Shown piece by piece: positions 4,966-53,683 of a DNA stretch of 64,000 nt. The DNA is from Sporosarcina trichiuri (GTDB lineage: Bacteria > Bacillota > Bacilli > Bacillales_A > Planococcaceae), in NCBI RefSeq assembly GCF_030406775.1, contig NZ_CP129119.1, forward strand, positions 1,212,001 through 1,276,000. The letters are read 5' to 3'. Within the stretch, counting starts at the first letter, position 1. Each line of letters opens with the position of its first letter. Made by a program: the position numbers and the translations under genes. The notes beneath the pieces are model-generated. The model searched no databases. It was not told the DNA's origin and saw only the letters and a list, made by a program, of their open reading frames with translations.

Positions 4966-5502
4966 TTACTCGGGCTGTACGCTTTGCATGAGTGAGACGA
5001 TTTCAGTCTCGCTCATTTCCCGTGTAATAATGTTTTGAATGACGCCGTCTTTGTCGATGAGCATTGTGGTCGGCAGAGGAACAACATTGTAGCTGTTGCG
5101 GCTGACACTCTTATTTTTGTCGATCATTACAGGAAACGTCAGTCCATATTGGTCGATGAACGTGCTGACTTTGAAGTCGGACTCACCGATGTTGACGGAA
5201 AGGACCTGGACTCCCTTATCTTTGAATTCCTTGTAATGCTTTTCGATATATGGCATCTCTTTTTTACAGGGAGGACACCATGTTCCCCAGAAATTCAAAA
5301 AGACACCCTGGCCTTCGTAATCGGACAGCTTCACTTTGCTGCCATCCATATCAAGGAGTTCGAAATTAGGTGCACGGTCTCCTGCTGCAAGAGTTTTTGT
5401 CTCCTTCTTAGAAGTCAGTGCAAAGACAATGGCAGCTGCAAGAAGGAGGAGAATGACACCCCGTATGATGAGCCGCTTTCTCTTCTTGTCCATTTTCGCC
5501 AC
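4966..5502 (-). CDS. resA: Thiol-disulfide oxidoreductase ResA
   Basis: Membrane-anchored thioredoxin-fold reductase that keeps the apocytochrome c CXXCH cysteines reduced on the outer face. Residues 9-30 form a signal anchor, and the AhpC/TSA-like fold follows from about 40. The redox motif is WCPPCKKE with Cys76 and Cys79. B. subtilis ResA has CEPC, in which the Glu tunes the active site, so CPPC is a visible difference. At 178 residues it is of normal length. First gene of resABC, preceded by an extended -10 promoter candidate at 5551-5559. Confidence 0.94.
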   Translation of the reverse strand: MAKMDKKRKRLIIRGVILLLLAAAIVFALTSKKETKTLAAGDRAPNFELLDMDGSKVKLSDYEGQGVFLNFWGTWCPPCKKEMPYIEKHYKEFKDKGVQVLSVNIGESDFKVSTFIDQYGLTFPVMIDKNKSVSRNSYNVVPLPTTMLIDKDGVIQNIITREMSETEIVSLMQSVQPE

Positions 5503-5550
5503 TTCTTTCCCCCCTCACGTGATTCGTTCAGCTCCTGCACAGCAACCTTT

Positions 5551-5559
5551 ATTATAACA
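5551..5559 (-). promoter_or_regulatory. Candidate resABC promoter (extended -10)
   Basis: On the minus strand TGTTATAAT is a perfect TATAAT preceded by TGn, about 50 bases upstream of resA. No good -35 box is seen at 16-18 bp spacing, so this would be an extended -10 SigA promoter, perhaps helped by ResD. No ResD site was identified. Confidence 0.45.
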
Positions 5560-5616
5560 AAGATGTGTTTTTGAATGGAGTCGCTTCGTGAGCGTTTTGT
5601 GACACTTGGCGATTGT

Positions 5617-6348
5617 TCAGCCAATTGTGCCGGTTTCGGCAAGGACCCGCAGCTGTTTCACTTCGTGCGTTGTGAGTTCCCTCGCTTCACCTGCATTGAG
5701 ACCGTGTGTGGTCAGGTTCGCAAACGATTCCCTGCGTAATTTGACGACGGGGCAGCCGATTGCATCGAACATGCGGCGCACTTGGCGGTTCCTGCCTTCT
5801 GATATTGTAATCTCCACAAGAGCGGTCTGCGCTTTCTTGTCCATTGAACGGAGTTTGACATGGGCCGGGCCTGTCATTCCGTCTTCAAGCTCGATGCCGT
5901 TTTCCAGCTTCTTCAGTGCTTCCCTCGTGGGAACACCTTTCACTTTTGCAATATATTGCTTCTTGATGCCGTATTTCGGATGGGTCATCGTATAGGAGAA
6001 ATCACCATCATTCGTCAGTATGATCACACCGGACGTGTCATAATCCAGACGGCCTACAGGGAAAATACGCTGTTCGACGCCCGGCAGCAGATCGAGAACC
6101 GTTTTCCGTCCTTTCTCATCGTGGACCGTCGAGATGTATCCTCTCGGTTTGTAGAGCAGATAATAGACGAATGTCTCTTTGACGATCTGGATGCCTTCCA
6201 CTTCGATCCGGTCTGACGCCGTCACTTTCGTACCGAGCTCCGTCACGACCGTGCCGTTCACTTTCACTTTCCCGTCTGTGATCAGACCTTCCGCTTTCCT
6301 GCGGGATGCCACGCCTGCACGGGCTAATACTTTTTGCAGTCTTTCCAT
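5617..6348 (-). CDS. rluB: 23S rRNA pseudouridine synthase RluB family
   Basis: Isomerises a uridine to pseudouridine in helix 93 of 23S rRNA (RluB position by homology). An S4 RNA-binding domain covers residues 2-60 (RLQKVLARAGVASRRKAE). The RsuA/RluB catalytic domain carries GRLDYDTSG with catalytic Asp102. The motif GRNRQVRRMFDAIG lies near residue 185. Length 243 is typical. It sits between dacB and resA as in Bacillus, but the spmA-spmB pair normally upstream is missing. Confidence 0.93.
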   Translation of the reverse strand: MERLQKVLARAGVASRRKAEGLITDGKVKVNGTVVTELGTKVTASDRIEVEGIQIVKETFVYYLLYKPRGYISTVHDEKGRKTVLDLLPGVEQRIFPVGRLDYDTSGVIILTNDGDFSYTMTHPKYGIKKQYIAKVKGVPTREALKKLENGIELEDGMTGPAHVKLRSMDKKAQTALVEITISEGRNRQVRRMFDAIGCPVVKLRRESFANLTTHGLNAGEARELTTHEVKQLRVLAETGTIG

Positions 6349-6468
6349 TCCGTCACCTCATTCTTCAGTCTAAAAAATTATGTCACATTTCACAGCAAAT
6401 GAAAAGGAGACCGACTGTAAATCGCCGGGCGCCCGCCTCGATACTTTGCAAAACAGCCGATTCACATG

Positions 6469-6522
6469 AAAAAGAGACTCCACGGTACAATGGGACGCCG
6501 CCTCATTGTTCTGTGCAGTCTC
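6469..6522 (-). terminator. Terminator after dacB
   Basis: A 19-bp imperfect stem (6474-6492 with 6504-6522; GAGACT / AGTCTC at the base) encloses an 11-nt loop and is followed on the minus strand by TTTTTCATG. It begins 16 bases after the dacB stop and separates scpAB-dacB from rluB. Confidence 0.8.
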
Positions 6523-6537
6523 TCATCATGTTTACGG

Positions 6538-7545
6538 TCAATCGGTCCTTGTCAGTTTCACAGCAGCTGTCACCAGAGGTTCCTGGCCGAGCGTGACGAT
6601 CCACTGGCCGGTGTCCCCGCTGGAACTGCTTCTTGGCAGCCGCATGATGGATGTTGTCTTTTTCCGTTCATCCTTGGTAAGCAGAAGTTCGATCGGATGG
6701 TCCAGTTCAGCTGTGACACCCGGCAGTACCGAGTATGTGCCTTTCTTCGCGATCCTTACGATATCATGGGTTTTGAAAGCTTCAGCGGCAAGTGTCTTAT
6801 GGACGTTCCAGTCGTTGCCGTTATTCAGCGTCACCACTATCACCCGTTTGCCGCCATGCTCGAAATACGTAGCGAGCGTCCTGCCGGCTGCCTTCGTGAA
6901 TCCCGTCTTTCCGGCGACGGCATCCGTATCGGATGTCACGAGCCGGTGCTTGTTCTGCCAGGCGGCTGCCTGACCAATACCGGACGTATAGTTCTCGGTG
7001 GAGGCGATTTTTCGGAACTCCTTGTTCTTCATGCCGTAATGCAGCATCATGGCGGTATCATATGCACTGGATAAGTGCTCCTCGTCATGCAGGCCGGACG
7101 GATTCGTGAAACGGGTGTTTTCCAGGCCGTAGAGCCGCGCCTGCTCATTCATCATCGTGACGAATCCTTCAAGCGAGCCGCCTGCATGCTCAGCGAGAGC
7201 TGCAGCCGCATCGTTGCCGGATCTCAGCATGAGACCGTACAGGAGGTCTTCCGATGAAACCGAGTCGCCCGGCGTCAGATAGATGGAGGATCCTTCCGCC
7301 GAAGCGGCCCGCGGAGAGATTTCCACCTCTTTTTCAGTCACGCCGGATTCGATGAACGTCAGAGCCGTCCACATCTTCGTCAGGCTCGCAATCGGCAGTC
7401 TGTCATGGGGGTGATACCCGTCCAGCAGCCTTCCTGTGTCCGCATCGATGACGGCCCACGAGGAATGCACAGCCGCCGACGCGGGCAGCTGGAATGGAAC
7501 ACTGACGAACAGCACAAGCAGCAGGCATACAAATGCTTTCTTCAA
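6538..7545 (-). CDS. dacB: D-alanyl-D-alanine carboxypeptidase, DacB/PBP5*-like
   Basis: Penicillin-binding carboxypeptidase that trims pentapeptide stems. Position after scpAB points to the sporulation-specific PBP5* that lowers spore cortex cross-linking. A signal peptide covers 1-25 (cut near ASAA). The three active-site motifs are present: SLTK (Ser54, Lys57), SGN (109-111) and KTG (213-215). The start is TTG, with AAGGAGG 9 bases upstream. At 335 residues it is shorter than many DacB proteins (about 380), lacking part of the C-terminal region. DacF-like function cannot be excluded, because dacF is absent from the spoIIA operon here. Confidence 0.85.
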   Translation of the reverse strand: MKKAFVCLLLVLFVSVPFQLPASAAVHSSWAVIDADTGRLLDGYHPHDRLPIASLTKMWTALTFIESGVTEKEVEISPRAASAEGSSIYLTPGDSVSSEDLLYGLMLRSGNDAAAALAEHAGGSLEGFVTMMNEQARLYGLENTRFTNPSGLHDEEHLSSAYDTAMMLHYGMKNKEFRKIASTENYTSGIGQAAAWQNKHRLVTSDTDAVAGKTGFTKAAGRTLATYFEHGGKRVIVVTLNNGNDWNVHKTLAAEAFKTHDIVRIAKKGTYSVLPGVTAELDHPIELLLTKDERKKTTSIMRLPRSSSSGDTGQWIVTLGQEPLVTAAVKLTRTD

Positions 7546-13693: not shown

Positions 13694-14140
13694 TCACCTC
13701 ATTCTGCTTTTTTCCGTGACCGGAGAAAATGTTTTTTCGAAACGGACGACAGTCCCCTGCCCGATGGCAGATTCGACAGACAGCGAATCCGCAAAGCTTT
13801 CCATGATCGTAAAGCCCATCCCGGATCGTTCGAGAAGCGGCTTTGTTGTGAACATCGGCTCCATCGCCTGGTCCACGTCGAAGATGCCATTGCCTTCGTC
13901 CTTCACTGTCATCGTCACTTTGCTGTCTTCGATTTTGGCGTGGATGGTCACTTCCCGGATGCCGTCACAGTCATAGCCATGGATGATCGCATTCGTGACT
14001 GCTTCGGAAACGATCGTCTTGAACTCGGACAGTTCTTCGAGCGTCGGGTCCAGCGGTGTGATGAAGCACGTCATCGTCATTCTGGCGAGTGCTTCGTTTT
14101 CTTCATGTGCGACAAATGACAATGTCATCTCATTGTTCAT
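13694..14140 (-). CDS. spoIIAB: Anti-sigma F factor / serine kinase SpoIIAB
   Basis: GHKL-fold protein that holds sigma-F inactive and phosphorylates SpoIIAA. N-box EAVTNAIIHGY (about 46-56), G1 box DEGNGI and G2 box ERSGMGF form the ATP site. Length 148, one or two residues longer than in Bacillus. GGAGGGG lies 6 bases before the ATG, and the start overlaps the spoIIAA end by 11 bp. Confidence 0.96.
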   Translation of the reverse strand: MNNEMTLSFVAHEENEALARMTMTCFITPLDPTLEELSEFKTIVSEAVTNAIIHGYDCDGIREVTIHAKIEDSKVTMTVKDEGNGIFDVDQAMEPMFTTKPLLERSGMGFTIMESFADSLSVESAIGQGTVVRFEKTFSPVTEKSRMR

Positions 14141-14483
14141 GTAAAACCCCTCCGATTTCCCCTATCGCATTTTCTACGGTGCCGCGCCTCAATACATCTC
14201 CGAGCCCCGAAAACTGAAAGATCTTTTCCATAGTCGGGGACGGATTCAGAATCAGCGTCTCCCCCTGCTGCGGGGCAAGATCGCGCATCCTCCCGAGAAC
14301 AAGCCCGATTCCCGAACTGTCCATGAAACTCAAGTGTGTAAGATCCCAAATGATCGCATGCGCCGTCCCGCTGAAGATCTCCGAAGAGATTTGTGTCCGG
14401 ATCCGGTTCGCCTCATGATTCCCTAATTCTCCCTGCAGCGTCACGACAATGATTCCATCAGGTGTAATTGACATTTGTGTCAC
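14130..14483 (-). CDS. spoIIAA: Anti-anti-sigma factor SpoIIAA
   Basis: STAS-domain protein that, when dephosphorylated by SpoIIE, releases sigma-F from SpoIIAB. The conserved segment LSFMDSSGIGLVLGR carries the phosphorylated Ser. I place the start at a GTG (14483), because AAGGAGG lies 8 bases upstream. This gives 117 residues, the same as the B. subtilis protein. First gene of spoIIAA-spoIIAB-sigF-spoVAF; no dacF precedes it. Confidence 0.93.
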   Translation of the reverse strand: MTQMSITPDGIIVVTLQGELGNHEANRIRTQISSEIFSGTAHAIIWDLTHLSFMDSSGIGLVLGRMRDLAPQQGETLILNPSPTMEKIFQFSGLGDVLRRGTVENAIGEIGGVLHEQ

Positions 14484-14543
14484 GTGTACCGCCTCCTTCC
14501 CGCCCTCTATTCTGCGGCGGTCGGACGGAACCCTTCTCGGTGA

Positions 14544-14586
14544 CAAAACTAGTCAAAACTAGTGGAAAGCACTGTTATTCCGACAA
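14544..14586 (-). promoter_or_regulatory. spoIIA upstream control region (direct repeat, Spo0A-box-like site)
   Basis: Two head-to-tail copies of CAAAACTAGT (plus-strand reading, 14544-14553 and 14554-14563) lie 60-80 bases before spoIIAA. On the minus strand TTGTCGGA (14579-14586) is one base off the Spo0A box TTGTCGAA. In Bacillus the spoIIA promoter uses sigma-H plus Spo0A~P. I could not place a sigma-H promoter with confidence. Confidence 0.4.
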
Positions 14587-14637
14587 TTGTTTCTCCGGTC
14601 AGTGTGAACAGATTCGGCCGTGATTAGACATGAAACC

Positions 14638-14674
14638 AAAAAAACACCATCCGGAATGAATACGGATGGTGTTT
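14638..14674 (-). terminator. Terminator after pdp
   Basis: A perfect 12-bp stem (14642-14653 and 14663-14674, AAACACCATCCG / CGGATGGTGTTT) is followed by seven T on the minus strand. It ends the xerD-deoB-pdp unit before the spoIIA control region. Confidence 0.9.
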
Positions 14675-14693
14675 CCTATGGCAAGTCCTATTG

Positions 14694-16007
14694 TCACTTT
14701 GCAATCCGGTCGATGACTTTGTAAATCAGTTCCGGCCGCTTCTGCGGATGCCGTGAAACGTGAATATGCTGTACCAGCATTTTCTCTGTCTGCTGGGTCT
14801 GTTCCGAGTTGGCATGGATGACGGCGATCGTTTCGCCGGCCTGGACGGCATCCCCGATCTTTTTCTTGAGGACGATTCCGACAGCCAAGTCGATTTCGTC
14901 TTCTTTCGTCGCCCGTCCCGCTCCAAGGAGCATTGCAGCGACGCCGATTTCATCTGCTTCCATCTTCGAAATATACCCTGTTGATGTCGACTTGACCTCT
15001 CTGACGATAGATGCCTTCGGCAGGAGCTCGGGGTTGCGGGCGATCTCAGGATTGCCTCCCTGGGCTTCGAGGAACTTGGCGAAGAGTTCAAGCGCGGAGC
15101 CATCATCGATGACACGCTGCAGCTGCTGACGCGCCTCCTTCGTATCCTTCGCTTTCCCGCCTGCAATGAGCATTTTGCTGCCGAGGACGAGACAGAGTTC
15201 CGTCAGATCATCCGGCCCCTGCCCTTTCAGCGTTTCGATCGCTTCCTTCACTTCCAGCGCATTGCCGATCGCATATCCGAGCGGCTGGCTCATATCCGAT
15301 ATGACGGCAATCGTATGGCGGCCGACCTCGCTGCCGATGTCGACCATCGCCTCGGCCAGAACCTCTGCATCCTCCGGTGTTTTCATGAAGGCGCCGTCCC
15401 CCGTTTTGACATCCAGCACGATTGCGTCCGCTCCAGCAGCGATCTTCTTGCTCATGATCGAACTCGCAATCAGCGGAATGCTGTCCACTGTGGCTGTAAC
15501 GTCGCGCAGCGCATACAGTTTCTTATCGGCAGGTGTCAAATTCCCGCTTTGACCGATGACCGCGATTTTCAGGTCATTCACCTGACGGACAAATTCCTTT
15601 TCCGTAATCTCGACATGGAACCCATCGATGGCTTCCAGCTTGTCGAGAGTGCCTCCTGTGTGGCCGAGACCTCTCCCGCTCATCTTGGCAACGGGCACAC
15701 CGCATGCTGCCACCAGTGGGGCAAGGATGAGCGTCGTCGTGTCCCCGACACCTCCTGTGGAATGTTTGTCCACTTTGATGCCTTCGATGGCGGACAGATC
15801 GATCCTGTCTCCCGAGTCCGCCATCGCCATTGTCAATGCTCCCTGCTCTTCAGGCTCCATGCCCGAGAAATAGGTTGCCATCAAAAATGCACTTGCCTGG
15901 TAATCTTGGATGGATCCATCCGTATAACCGTTCACGAAATACCGGATCTCCGCTTCCGACAGCGTATCCCCGTCTCTCTTCTTCTGAATTACATCGACCA
16001 TCCTCAT
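14694..16007 (-). CDS. pdp: Pyrimidine-nucleoside phosphorylase Pdp
   Basis: Phosphorolysis of uridine, thymidine and deoxyuridine to the base and (deoxy)ribose-1-phosphate, feeding the adjacent phosphopentomutase. Family motifs: [12 protein letters not shown] (phosphate site), [16 protein letters not shown] and [21 protein letters not shown] use the ATG at 16007 ([10 protein letters not shown], as in the B. subtilis protein), 437 residues. A GTG three codons earlier (16016) would overlap the deoB stop and is also possible. Confidence 0.93.
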
Positions 16008-22869: not shown

Positions 22870-22936
22870 CAGAATCACCAGATGAAACGCAAAACAGTGA
22901 CCTGCAGTCTTTCCGCAGGTTGTTTCACATCCGCTG

Positions 22937-23008
22937 CTCTCATAGTCGGTTCGTTTACGGCAAACCGGTAGAAACTTGCGGGCCATATCCCCGCTATTAT
23001 ATGAGTGA
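22937..23008 (-). promoter_or_regulatory. Purine (guanine/xanthine-class) riboswitch aptamer
   Basis: The three-way junction is readable on the minus strand: P1 ACTCATA / TATGAG, P2 GCGGG / CCCGC with loop containing GATATGG, P3 GGTTTG / CGAACC with loop CCGTAAA, and the core AAGTTTCTACC. The specificity base before TATGAG is C (position 22945, the C74 equivalent), so guanine or hypoxanthine is read rather than adenine. It lies upstream of xpt-pbuX. Confidence 0.95.
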
Positions 23009-23028
23009 ATGTATTCGATTTTGATATC

Positions 23029-35460: not shown

Positions 35461-36081
35461 TTGAAGAAGATCTCAAAAAGGCAGGAAGACATCCTGTCAT
35501 TCATTAAAGACGAAGTCCAGAAGAAGGGCTATCCGCCTTCCGTCCGTGAAATCGGTGAAGCGGTCGGTCTGGCCTCGAGTTCGACCGTCCACGGCCATCT
35601 TGCCCGGCTAGAGAGCAAGGGTCTTATCCGACGGGATCCTACAAAGCCCCGTGCGATCGAAGTTCTCGGCCAGGAAGATGCCGACGAACTCAAGACAGGT
35701 GTCGTACATGTCCCTCTTGTGGGAAAGGTCACGGCAGGACTGCCGATCACCGCAATCGAGAACATTGAAGAATATTTCCCGATTCCCGACTCGTTCGGTA
35801 CTTCAGAGGACAACCTTTTCATGCTGGAGATCATGGGGGAGAGTATGATTGAAGCAGGAATCCTGAACGGCGACCGTGTCGTCGTGAAGCAGCAGCACAC
35901 TGCGAGCAACGGTGAAATCGTCGTCGCGATGACTGAAGAGGATGAAGCGACAGTGAAACGTTTCTTCAAAGAGAAAGATTATTTCCGGCTGCAGCCGGAG
36001 AACTCATCGATGGATCCGATCATTGTCGAAAATGTATCGATTCTCGGCAAGGTCGTCGGCGTGTATCGTACCATCCATTGA
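35461..36081 (+). CDS. lexA: SOS repressor LexA
   Basis: Represses SOS genes until RecA filaments stimulate self-cleavage. 206 residues. Winged helix 1-65 ([20 protein letters not shown]), cleavage site Ala92-Gly93 (TAGLPI), and catalytic Ser128 (GESMIEAG) with Lys166 (ATVKRFF). The start is TTG, with GAGGTG upstream. Nearly identical in motif layout to B. subtilis LexA. Followed by a bidirectional-looking terminator. Confidence 0.97.
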
Positions 36082-36087
36082 ATTAGC

Positions 36088-36135
36088 AAAAAACAGCACG
36101 GACGTCACGTTTTCATGGCGTCCGTGCTGTTTTTT
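36088..36135 (+). terminator. Terminator after lexA
   Basis: Arms ACAGCACGGACG (36093-36104) and CGTCCGTGCTGT (36119-36130) form a 12-bp perfect stem with a 14-base loop, preceded by A-run and followed by TTTTT. Confidence 0.93.
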
Positions 36136-36189: not shown

Positions 36190-36249
36190 TTTATGAGTGC
36201 ATATCGTGATTTATGATCACTTTGCTTAGTTTATGATCCCTTATCTTCC
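36190..36249. repeat. 20-bp tandem repeat, first block (3 units)
   Basis: Three consecutive 20-base units start at 36190, 36210 and 36230. Each begins TTTATGA; unit 2 is TTTATGATCACTTTGCTTAG. The first 14 bases are conserved and the last 6 vary. Because 20 is not a multiple of 3, this is not a coding repeat. No gene overlaps it. Confidence 0.9.
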
Positions 36250-36398
36250 AGTGAACCTCTCTGCTCCGCTCCCGCTCCGAATACGCGGAGCGAAGCGCAG
36301 CCGGCAAATCCGATCCTTGGCTTGCTCCTTTTCTGCGCGGCCGTGTCTGCTGCAGGAACGGGGTACGGGCCGCGTACCGGCGGGTGCCGGTATGTGAA
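36250..36398. other. GC-rich gene-free insert with short palindromes between repeat blocks
   Basis: About 150 bases without a credible gene on either strand. They hold GCTCCG-N6-CGGAGC (36274-36291), GGTAC-N7-GTACC (36362-36378) and ACCGGC-GGGT-GCCGGT (36376-36391), the last two overlapping by three bases. The stretch 36136-36189 just before the first repeat block is also GC-rich and gene-free. It may be a transcript-structure element or the remains of an insertion into one original repeat array. Confidence 0.55.
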
Positions 36399-36558
36399 GT
36401 TATGAGCGCTTTTCGGATTTTATGATCACTTCCACGTGTTTATGAGCGGAAATCCGGATTTATGATCACTTTCCTGTTTTTATGGTCACTATTGCGGATT
36501 TATGATCACTTTTACAAATTTATGATCATTATCCCTGTTTCATGATCGTGTTCAAGAT
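36399..36558. repeat. 20-bp tandem repeat, second block (8 units)
   Basis: Eight units start exactly every 20 bases at 36399, 36419, 36439, 36459, 36479, 36499, 36519 and 36539. The consensus is TTTATGATCACTTT plus six variable bases; some units carry GAGCG in place of GATCA. The array ends about 45 bases before the ynbB stop codon. It lies between convergent genes. Confidence 0.92.
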
Positions 36559-36601: not shown

Positions 36602-37864
36602 TCACTTGATAAGACCCAGTTCCTCCAGTCGGCCGACCGCACTCAGGATGGCCGCCTTGACGTGCTCGTAGGTGAGGCCGCCCTGGACGTACGCCGTGTA
36701 TGGCGGCCGGATCGGACCGTCCGCTGTCAGTTCGATGCTGGAGCCCTGGATGAACGTACCGGCCGCCATGATGACATCATCGGCATATCCCGGCATGTAC
36801 GACGGCACCGGGCTGACATGGGCGTCGATCGGCGAGTTTTCCTGGATGGTCTGGCAGAATGCGATCATCTGCTCAGCGCTGGCAAATGAGACGGATTGGA
36901 TCAGGTCAGTCCGCTTGGCGGAGAAATGCGGCGCTGTCTCCAGTCCATAGGAGGCGAGCATGCCCGCGGTGAACTGTGCCCCTTTGACCGCCTGGCTGAC
37001 GACGTGCGGTGCCAGGAAGAAACCTTGATACATTTCACGAAGCGTGTCGAGACTCGCGCCGGCTTCCGCGCCGAGTCCCGGGGAAGTCATCCGGTAGCTG
37101 CATTTCTCGATCAGATCCGCGCGCCCGGCAATATAGCCGCCTGTACGCGCAAGACCGCCTCCCGGGTTTTTGATGAGGGACCCGGCCATGATATCGATGC
37201 CGACCTCGGTCGGTTCCAGTTCTTCTGTGAATTCACCGTAGCAGTTGTCGGTGAATAGGATGAGGCCGGGGTGCTTCGATTTGATGCGCTCCGCCATCTC
37301 CTGGATTTTGCTGATTGTGAACGACGGACGGTCTGCGTACCCGCGGGAGCGCTGGATGGCGATCATCTTTGTTTCAGGGCGGATCTGCCGCTCGACTTCG
37401 TCGAAATCGACACTGCCGTCATCCAGAAGATCGACGTGACGGTAGCTTATATTCAGATCCTTCAGCGAGCCGGTATCCTTGTCCCCTCCGGATACGATGG
37501 ATTCCAGCGTGTCGTATGGTTTCCCGGTAATATAAAGAAGCTCATCACCCGGCCGCAGAATGCCGAAAAGCGTGATGGCGATGGCGTGTGTGCCTGAGAT
37601 GATCTGACCGCGGACGAGACAATCCTCCGCACCGAACGTATCCGCATACACCCGTTCGAGGACTTCACGGCCTGAGTCGTCATAGCCGTATCCGGTCGAG
37701 CCATTCAGATGGAAGTCGCTGACGCGGTTGTTACGGAATGTGGCAAGCACTTTCTGCTGGTTGAACAGGGCGATCCGCTCCGTCTCCTGCGAATATGGCC
37801 GTATTTCCGTCTCTATCTTTTCTGCGCGCGCAAGGATTTCGTTGTTCAATTGCTGTATACTCAT
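36602..37864 (-). CDS. ynbB: Methionine gamma-lyase family PLP protein (YnbB-like)
   Basis: 420-residue fold-I PLP enzyme of the YnbB (aluminium resistance/Met-gamma-lyase-like) family. Features: GSTGYGYDDSGREVLERVYADTFG near the N-terminus, TDNCYGEF, and the PLP lysine in GSLIKNPGGGLARTGGY near residue 230. The physiological substrate is not established. It is not next to glnRA as in Bacillus; here it lies between the repeat array and a TRIC-type gene. Confidence 0.85.
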   Translation of the reverse strand: MSIQQLNNEILARAEKIETEIRPYSQETERIALFNQQKVLATFRNNRVSDFHLNGSTGYGYDDSGREVLERVYADTFGAEDCLVRGQIISGTHAIAITLFGILRPGDELLYITGKPYDTLESIVSGGDKDTGSLKDLNISYRHVDLLDDGSVDFDEVERQIRPETKMIAIQRSRGYADRPSFTISKIQEMAERIKSKHPGLILFTDNCYGEFTEELEPTEVGIDIMAGSLIKNPGGGLARTGGYIAGRADLIEKCSYRMTSPGLGAEAGASLDTLREMYQGFFLAPHVVSQAVKGAQFTAGMLASYGLETAPHFSAKRTDLIQSVSFASAEQMIAFCQTIQENSPIDAHVSPVPSYMPGYADDVIMAAGTFIQGSSIELTADGPIRPPYTAYVQGGLTYEHVKAAILSAVGRLEELGLIK

Positions 37865-52750: not shown

Positions 52751-53683
52751 TCATTTTTTATATTGGATGATGATATTTTGAGTGATCTGATCGTTCGGAT
52801 AAGACAGCGGTTCGCCATTCACGAGAATCTCGGTGAATTGCGTGCGTCCCACTCGGATCCTCGCTGACTCCTGTCCGCTCAGATCGACGGTCTCTTCCTG
52901 TCCTGCTGTCATGACACGTGCGCCTTGCGGCATCAGTTCCTGACCTGCCGGATTTGTGATCCCGATCCAGGATTCGCCTTCTGGTTTGACCTTCACAGTA
53001 ACCGAGAACTTCTCGGCATTCTCCAGTGTGAATGTCGAATCCGCACCTGATACGGAGGCCTGGGTCAAGGTCTGATCAGCAGCAGGTTCTTCCGGTTCTT
53101 CCGGTTCTTCCGGTTCTTCCGGTTCTTCCGGCTCTTCTTCTTGCGCCGGCTGCTCCTCTTCATCTGTATCAGCATCTTCTTTTCCTTCGTCTTTCTTGCC
53201 GTCCTCTTCAAGTGTCGGCTGGTCTGACGGCTTATCGACCGTCAACTCATCCGCAGCGCCGGGCTCATCGGGTTTCTGTGTATTTGCCTGATGTTTATAG
53301 AGGAATACGACAACAGCCAATATGACGACGATGAAAAGAGCTGCGATAATCTTAGGCAGCATTTCATTCATCCTGCCTGACCGGCTGAAGCCTGTCTTCT
53401 GGTTCATCTGCGGGGCACTGCGCTGCACTTCCTCTTCCCGCATCTGGGCGGATGATTCGTTTTCACGATAGAGGGCCAGCATTTCCTGGGCATCAAGTCC
53501 GACCGCTTCGGCATATTGTTTGATGAATGCCCGGACATAGAAAGAGCCCGGCATCATGCTGTAATCCTCGTTCTCGATTCCTGCTAAATACCGTTTTTGT
53601 ATTTTCGTTATTGCTTGTAAGTCATCCAGGGTATACCCTTTTGCTTTTCGTGCATCTTTCAGCCGTTCGCCCAATCCGGACAA
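52751..53683 (-). CDS. rodZ: RodZ/YmfM-like helix-turn-helix membrane protein
   Basis: Cell-shape protein thought to link MreB to the envelope. N-terminal HTH_25 domain (about 5-70, LGERLKDARKAKGYTLDDLQ), one helix (about 110-132), an acidic Pro/Glu-rich linker with six EEP-type triplets, and a C-terminal DUF4115 beta domain (about 215-305). I choose a TTG start at 53683 because AGGTGA lies just upstream; a GTG three codons earlier lacks one. 310 residues. Confidence 0.87.
   Translation of the reverse strand: MSGLGERLKDARKAKGYTLDDLQAITKIQKRYLAGIENEDYSMMPGSFYVRAFIKQYAEAVGLDAQEMLALYRENESSAQMREEEVQRSAPQMNQKTGFSRSGRMNEMLPKIIAALFIVVILAVVVFLYKHQANTQKPDEPGAADELTVDKPSDQPTLEEDGKKDEGKEDADTDEEEQPAQEEEPEEPEEPEEPEEPEEPAADQTLTQASVSGADSTFTLENAEKFSVTVKVKPEGESWIGITNPAGQELMPQGARVMTAGQEETVDLSGQESARIRVGRTQFTEILVNGEPLSYPNDQITQNIIIQYKK
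53085..53138. repeat. 9-bp tandem repeat inside rodZ
   Basis: Six consecutive copies of GGTTCTTCC (plus-strand reading; the last is GGCTCTTCT), in frame with the gene and encoding the Glu-Glu-Pro linker. Such arrays change copy number by slippage without shifting the frame. Confidence 0.9.

Follow-up and report, generated by a model that had tools for sequence, protein, structure and literature searches.

Arrays of 20-bp units are dispersed in the chromosome

The array located between lexA and ynbB is no local oddity, as it belongs to an element with copies dispersed over the chromosome. Our leading explanation, still tentative, is that such arrays are DNA-level, helically phased, putative protein-binding platforms that lie outside transcription units and have an architectural role. 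A protein-binding array was among the roles listed by an earlier, sequence-only reading of this DNA, and it is the one favored by the evidence below.

In the window (the whole stretch of 64,000 nucleotides that was analyzed), lexA (35461..36081, plus strand; Peptidase_S24 and LexA_DNA_bind Pfam domains) is separated from the array by an intrinsic terminator (36088..36135) made of an A-run, a hairpin (36094-36129), and a T-run. On the other side, a ynbB-like coding sequence (36602..37864, minus strand; Met_gamma_lyase Pfam domain) converges on the array, and both blocks lie between the lexA terminator and the 3′ end of this gene. Rereading the unit starts confirmed 11 units in exact 20-bp steps, close to two helical turns as had been noted, and their partition into two blocks. 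Block 1 (36190..36249, plus strand) has three units, starting at 36190, 36210, and 36230, and is the same in the sister strain. Block 2 (36399..36558, plus strand) has eight units, starting every 20 bp from 36399 to 36539, for which TRF reported periods of 20 and 40. The 14-base core, with at most two mismatches, had eight matches in the window, seven of them inside the array, against 0.52 expected, and none of 100 shuffles reached eight. The 14-base sequence TTTATGATCACTTT, first taken as common to all units, turned out to be exact in only 3 of the 11. There are in fact two types of units, A (TTTATGATCACTTT) and B (TTTATGAGCGGAAT), sharing the core TTTATGA[G/T]C and following each other in block 2 in the order B-A-B-A-A-A-A-A. 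Similarly, the palindrome TGATCA, previously regarded as the key conserved part, is present in 5 of the 11 window units and confined to type A, type B being devoid of it and not palindromic. The stretch between the two blocks is not empty, since it carries a conserved leader module (36277..36346, plus strand). The left-end motif GTGAAGTTATGAGC is found at 36394..36407 (plus strand), and GTGAAGTTATGAKC has 39 exact matches in the genome. These 39 left-end motifs, inspected by eye, occur in both orientations along the genome, and a replication polarity of the arrays was discarded. Elsewhere in the window, a 9-bp repeat, GGTTCTTCC, lies within a predicted coding region (53085-53149), and a purine riboswitch (22923-23024, minus strand) is the only Rfam match at the gathering score.

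The genome (3.06 Mb) contains 259 TTATGAKCR pairs exactly 20 bp apart (110 forward and 149 reverse), while the reversed-pattern control gave none. The sequence of this genome that we read amounts to 923 kb, comprising the window, one contiguous stretch of 400 kb, and stretches picked because they hold arrays. Over these 923 kb, a chain rule, which overlooks weak blocks (block 1 of the window, for instance), identified 59 array pieces with 412 units, forming 49 loci. Most pieces (41 of 59) have 7-8 units, and the units of an array are all head-to-tail. The spacing between units of this family (F1) is 20 bp in 283 cases, 21 bp in 66, and takes four other values once each. Positions 2-7 and 9 of the unit carry 1.8-2.0 bits, a value inflated by the selection of units with at most one core mismatch; the base at position 8 is either G or T, A/T accounts for 96% and 90% of the bases at positions 12-13, and positions 15-20 are nearly free. 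A leader profile built from the sequence between the two blocks retrieved 20 copies at E < 1e-6 in the own-genome sequence read, that of the window included. Nineteen of them stop 7-91 bp short of an array in the same orientation, and the 20th is 31 bp from one array and ahead of another that is split by an insertion sequence (IS); as most of the sequence searched had been picked for arrays, this says little about the rest of the genome. When 54 loci from other genomes were searched, the leader had no match at E up to 0.01.

Unit cores diverge less than spacers between strains

The main rival of the protein-binding platform is a satellite-like selfish extragenic repeat without host function, a possible if doubtful explanation, whereby slippage or unequal recombination would amplify the units, composites of leader and array would duplicate locally, and the core would be kept by unit conversion or a replication-level bias. 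The comparison with the sister strain G226, classed as the same species, gave evidence on both sides. At several loci, array length differs between the strains by whole units (e.g., -40, -40, +40, and -60 bp), and two loci show differences of 293 and 338 bp, as a satellite might. Against this, all of the 45 array loci (out of 49) that could be mapped on both sides in G226 carry arrays, with no empty site. The 21-bp spacings and the unit types are also ordered, which argues against a satellite: in the 41 pieces of 7-8 units, a 21-bp spacing opens the array in 29, closes it in 15, and occurs at other places 7 times, and types A and B alternate 204 times, compared to 164 ± 7.5 in shuffles (largest, 189).

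Another argument against a satellite is that the core is 6.5-fold less divergent than the spacer. Substitutions between the strains affected 7 of 2672 sites (0.26%) at unit positions 1-9, 14 of 1484 at positions 10-14, and 30 of 1779 (1.69%) at positions 15-20, the spacer, whereas the flanks showed 175 in 17568 noncoding (1.0%) and 208 in 33337 coding sites (Fisher's test; P = 4.9e-7 for core versus spacer, P = 3.6e-5 for core versus noncoding flank). Skipped units were filled in for this count and 43 of the 59 pieces were usable, the 16 others being dropped for having no match, cut or interrupted loci, a length difference, or an identity below 95%. A first count, made before filling in units and dropping pieces, gave 12/2312 for the core, 46/1536 for the spacer, and 280/18987 for the flank. 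The low divergence of the core supports selection without proving it, because the end units were still chosen by their core in the own genome (G000) and because conversion between units sharing a core could give the same result.

Arrays are found in many Sporosarcina genomes

The sequence-only reading had proposed a search for the 14-base core at 20-bp spacing across relatives, and held a functional role to be unlikely if the array were unique to this genome and varied freely. This refutation fails: the search revealed arrays in many Sporosarcina genomes, and the core varies less than the spacer between strains. At least one TTATGAKCR pair was present in 34 of 261 Planococcaceae genomes; the other 227 had none, so the F1 element is not generally required. 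Each of the 10 genomes whose LexA is at least 92% identical has between 259 and 613 pairs, and an array of the same orientation is present in the lexA–ynbB gap of all 10, one of these gaps being cut by a contig end. The number of exact-core units in this gap ranges from 3 to 32 (39 in the longest by a looser count), thus the exact length of the array is not essential. This wide variation between species and the absence from most relatives are both in line with a satellite.

Among 20 other genomes read at the lexA locus, a different motif, which ends in ACAGTT, was present in three or more units in 5, and neither motif occurred in 15. Pairs of the ACAGTT type occur in 9 of 68 genomes of the genus, most of them in G175 (127) and G217 (87). 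Spacings of 19 and 21 predominate: counts with the full motif were 14 and 14 at two G175 loci and 15 and 5 in G217, with none at 20, and a looser count added one spacing of 20 in G175. The two motif types may co-occur, as in G191, with 27 TTATGAKCR and 26 CATKACAGTT pairs. When 11 array loci from four other Sporosarcina genomes were compared with the own genome, the flanks of 4 matched array-bearing loci (L007, L012, L018, and L020, two of which correspond to the lexA locus), and those of the other 7 had no match in the 923-kb subset compared. Some of the array positions are therefore old, and turnover may affect others. In a sample of the class, three TTATGAKC at 20 bp were found in 4 of 398 genomes, two of which are outside the family: G612 (22 matches) and G338 (2 matches). 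Five arrays were read in G612 (L257-L261), which belongs to another family of the class; they have the same TTATGAKC core at 20 bp, with a rest-of-unit sequence that differs by locus. All are located between open reading frames of at least 90 codons, 3 of the 5 between convergent ones. One G612 array is made of 18 near-identical units, which again speaks for a satellite.

Several motif families share one period

Scanning the own-genome sample without a preset motif revealed intergenic arrays of five other families, grouped by eye: F2 (AAGTGTCCGATAC, spacing of 21), F3 (GCTTGAGCG, 20-21), F4 (AATGGAKCGSTTCG, 21), F5 (GAACCCGCCCGTTC, about 21), and F6 (ATACGCGCGGCC, about 21). F5 and F6 are represented by single arrays, at L113:15741-15949 and L124:1336-1514, respectively. 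F2, with the core TGTCCGATA, was found at L101:955-1600, L107:2407-2847, L122:4726-5128, and L125:3861-4280; its spacing was 21 in 34 of 34 adjacent pairs counted, and a leader-like sequence is interleaved between its blocks. The third family, with the core CTTGAGCG at 20-21 bp, occupies intergenic positions at L104:2714-2960, at L105:228-457, and at ~2,424.8 kb and ~2,454.7 kb of the own genome. F4, searched with a strict three-unit pattern, is present in 5 of 261 genomes. The spacing rules differ between motif families. The noncoding tandem arrays of the own genome have almost only periods of 20-21 bp. Between lags 6 and 130, in a sample partly picked for F1 arrays, 38 noncoding tandem loci were at lag 20, 15 at lag 21, and the rest at sums of these, with one exception each at lags 30, 39, 51, 52, 79, and 99; coding repeats in the same scan were at multiples of 3. 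In a contiguous 464 kb, 9 of 10 noncoding loci were at lag 20, 21, 40, or 61, and one at 52. The eight loci classed there as coding, by a crude open reading frame rule, included six at lags 20, 21, 40, 40, 42, and 61, and two at 51 and 18. The exception of the contiguous stretch is a noncoding 52-bp tandem repeat at ~2,668.4-2,668.7 kb of the own genome. The same scan of 200 kb in each of four other genomes gave no locus in G220 and G228, one in G172 (lag 40), and five in G217 (lags 21, 40, 61, 61, and 62), the last of which is not obviously an array. That one period is shared by different motifs argues against a satellite; a selfish repeat, too, must account for noncoding tandem repeats almost confined to one period.

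Helical phasing could matter in itself, without protein recognition, if the arrays were intrinsically curved DNA or a preferred topoisomerase substrate, which we consider unlikely. The A/T-rich stretches at unit positions 1-5 and 12-14 are compatible with this idea, as is the half-period A/T phasing (p < 0.05) of 41 of the 59 F1 pieces, although these share one motif and are not independent. The predicted curvature, calculated with wedge parameters, was 69.5 in 38 arrays, compared to 43.6 in intergenic DNA and 45.7 in column-permuted arrays. Yet only 1 of 12 arrays of the other families of the same genome showed A/T phasing at p < 0.05; the phasing is thus no general property of the families, which makes curvature alone a less likely explanation. 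Moreover, the exact bases of the core are conserved, beyond their A/T content.

Most arrays probably lie outside transcripts

None of the 59 array pieces overlaps a predicted gene, either with a custom gene caller or with an earlier one, and the previous view that the window array is not coding is supported. Of these pieces, 26 are located between convergent genes, 28 between tandem genes, and 5 between divergent genes, versus 36, 187, and 41 of 264 gaps, respectively. The frequent position between convergent genes is therefore confirmed, although this enrichment may merely reflect the avoidance of promoters. Of 73 gene 3′ ends that face an array at most 400 bp away, 55 have an intrinsic terminator in the interval; terminators are frequent without arrays too, at 12 of 22 convergent ends and 64 of 153 tandem ones. 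With a strict test requiring perfect stems, which misses long loops such as that of the lexA terminator, the frequencies were 19 of 76 facing ends versus 5 of 90 control ends. Because 55 of the 73 facing ends are terminated before the array, most arrays are probably outside transcripts.

These terminators also count against the arrays acting as RNA, within the 3′ regions of their flanking genes, a role that had been suggested for the window array and that now seems very unlikely. For the strand complementary to the array, 3 of 4 cases do fold better than their shuffles (z of -2.48, -3.06, and -4.33; +1.19 for the fourth), by means of GTGATCAT of two units. However, no consistent fold emerged: the array strand reached z < -2 in 2 of 8 cases, RNAalifold predicted six pairs in the leader, one of them with a compensatory change, and there is no Rfam match at the array.

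Arrays are interrupted by an IS110-family element

Three arrays are each interrupted by an identical copy of an IS of ~1,767 bp with DEDD_Tnp_IS110 and Transposase_20 domains (L105:7936-9702, L102 ~14120-15890, and L103 ~5365-7227). Every copy sits in a TTTATGAGC unit, after TTTATGAGC, and in one orientation relative to the array. The sister strain is devoid of the three copies: at one locus, the uninterrupted unit could be read, and the other two loci are shorter there, by roughly one IS length or more. In its 376-nt 3′ noncoding region, the IS carries TTATGAGCAT, which might be its target guide; guide RNAs of IS110-type elements come up in PMC11208160 and PMC11187229. Repetitive extragenic palindromes (REPs) are reported as IS targets in PMC1525189, and the apparent targeting of the arrays parallels REP biology, without making the arrays REPs.

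Arrays as putative phased protein-binding platforms

The cores are head-to-tail and two turns apart, they diverge more slowly than the spacers, and each family has its own spacing, a combination that fits a protein reading each unit from one face. In the protein-binding platform, each 20-bp unit would offer the recognition core TTTATGA[G/T]C, with A/T favored at positions 12-14, to a candidate sequence-specific DNA-binding protein. The two-turn spacing would align 7-8 bound molecules on one face of the DNA, and these could bind cooperatively. We infer the protein and its cooperativity from this anatomy and the architectural function from position only. As the element is found between transcription units, and above expectation where genes converge, its likeliest job would be to pin or insulate the chromosome between converging transcription units.

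More broadly, and with considerable doubt, the arrays could represent a new class of element defined by its period and not by its sequence. Recognition sites two helical turns apart would occupy intergenic gaps, with several motif families per genome and, at a given locus, different motifs in different species, as if they co-evolved with a diversifying family of DNA-binding architectural proteins. Our searches of open-licence papers returned no description of such arrays. If this is true, these bacteria mark their intergenic gaps with phased protein platforms that keep the two-turn period while their sequence differs from one species to another. The arrays would then offer a Gram-positive counterpart of REP/BIME elements that can be tested, and would lead directly to a new nucleoid or insulator protein.

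Comparison with known systems

Like CRISPR, the arrays are made of repeats that include a variable part and are preceded by a leader-like module. They differ from it by their diverging units and dozens of loci, and the near-identical repeats and ~30-bp spacers of CRISPR contrast with 20-bp units whose variable part is ~6 bp, so the initial judgment that the array is not CRISPR-like stands. The tandem units, in numbers that differ between strains, recall minisatellites or VNTRs, from which the arrays are set apart by a slow core with a spacer that changes faster, the recurrence of one motif at dozens of loci, a period confined to 20-21 bp, and a nonrandom order of units.

Plasmid iterons are phased direct repeats of about 17-22 bp with the motif TGAGNG. 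The arrays are also phased direct repeats of similar length (spacings of 20 and 21), and G at positions 8 and 10 (TGAGCG), found in 150 of the 412 units, fits TGAGNG. Sites of this kind for a protein of the replication-initiator type are nonetheless a highly improbable explanation, because the arrays are dispersed over dozens of chromosomal loci, the four window neighbors tested with Pfam are not rep genes, and two F1 arrays and one F3 array had no match in 72,556 plasmids. Among viral contigs, 16 have an F2 pair, and two of these hold 21-bp arrays of TGTCCGATA (TATCGGACA), at L244:1-300 and L236:7100-7340; that of the phage contig L244 lies directly before apparent replication genes, whose roles were assigned by eye. 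Given the size of the collection, these arrays are possibly a chance match of a 9-mer to some 21-bp repeat, but they are the reason why we keep a replication-linked reading open. A phage origin of F1 was considered and rejected: 31 viral contigs had one unit pair each and none had more, in a count made without a shuffle control, and one F1 array had no match in 50,697 phage records.

The closest likeness is to REP/BIME elements. According to PMC3733652, PMC2817692, and PMC1525189, REPs are dispersed, extragenic, present in many copies, often located between convergent or co-directional genes, represented by several families in one genome, and targeted by site-specific IS. The arrays share the extragenic and dispersed location, the many copies, the several families, the frequent convergent or downstream placement, and the repeated hits by one IS, and the own genome has one PF01797 gene. 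A REP/BIME-type element mobilized by a RAYT transposase is nonetheless highly improbable. REP/BIME elements are hairpin-capable palindromes in alternating orientation, with a cognate RAYT flanked by repeats, while the arrays consist of direct head-to-tail units at 20 bp, those of type B not being palindromic, and have ordered ends and a leader. Furthermore, their presence does not correlate with PF01797, which is absent from the array-rich G166, G189, and G190 and present in array-free genomes. Within the 6.5 kb that surround the G000 PF01797 gene, there is one lone TTATGATC and no array, and none of the 45 sister-strain loci is an empty site. The arrays are thus placed like REP/BIME elements but are most likely not REPs.
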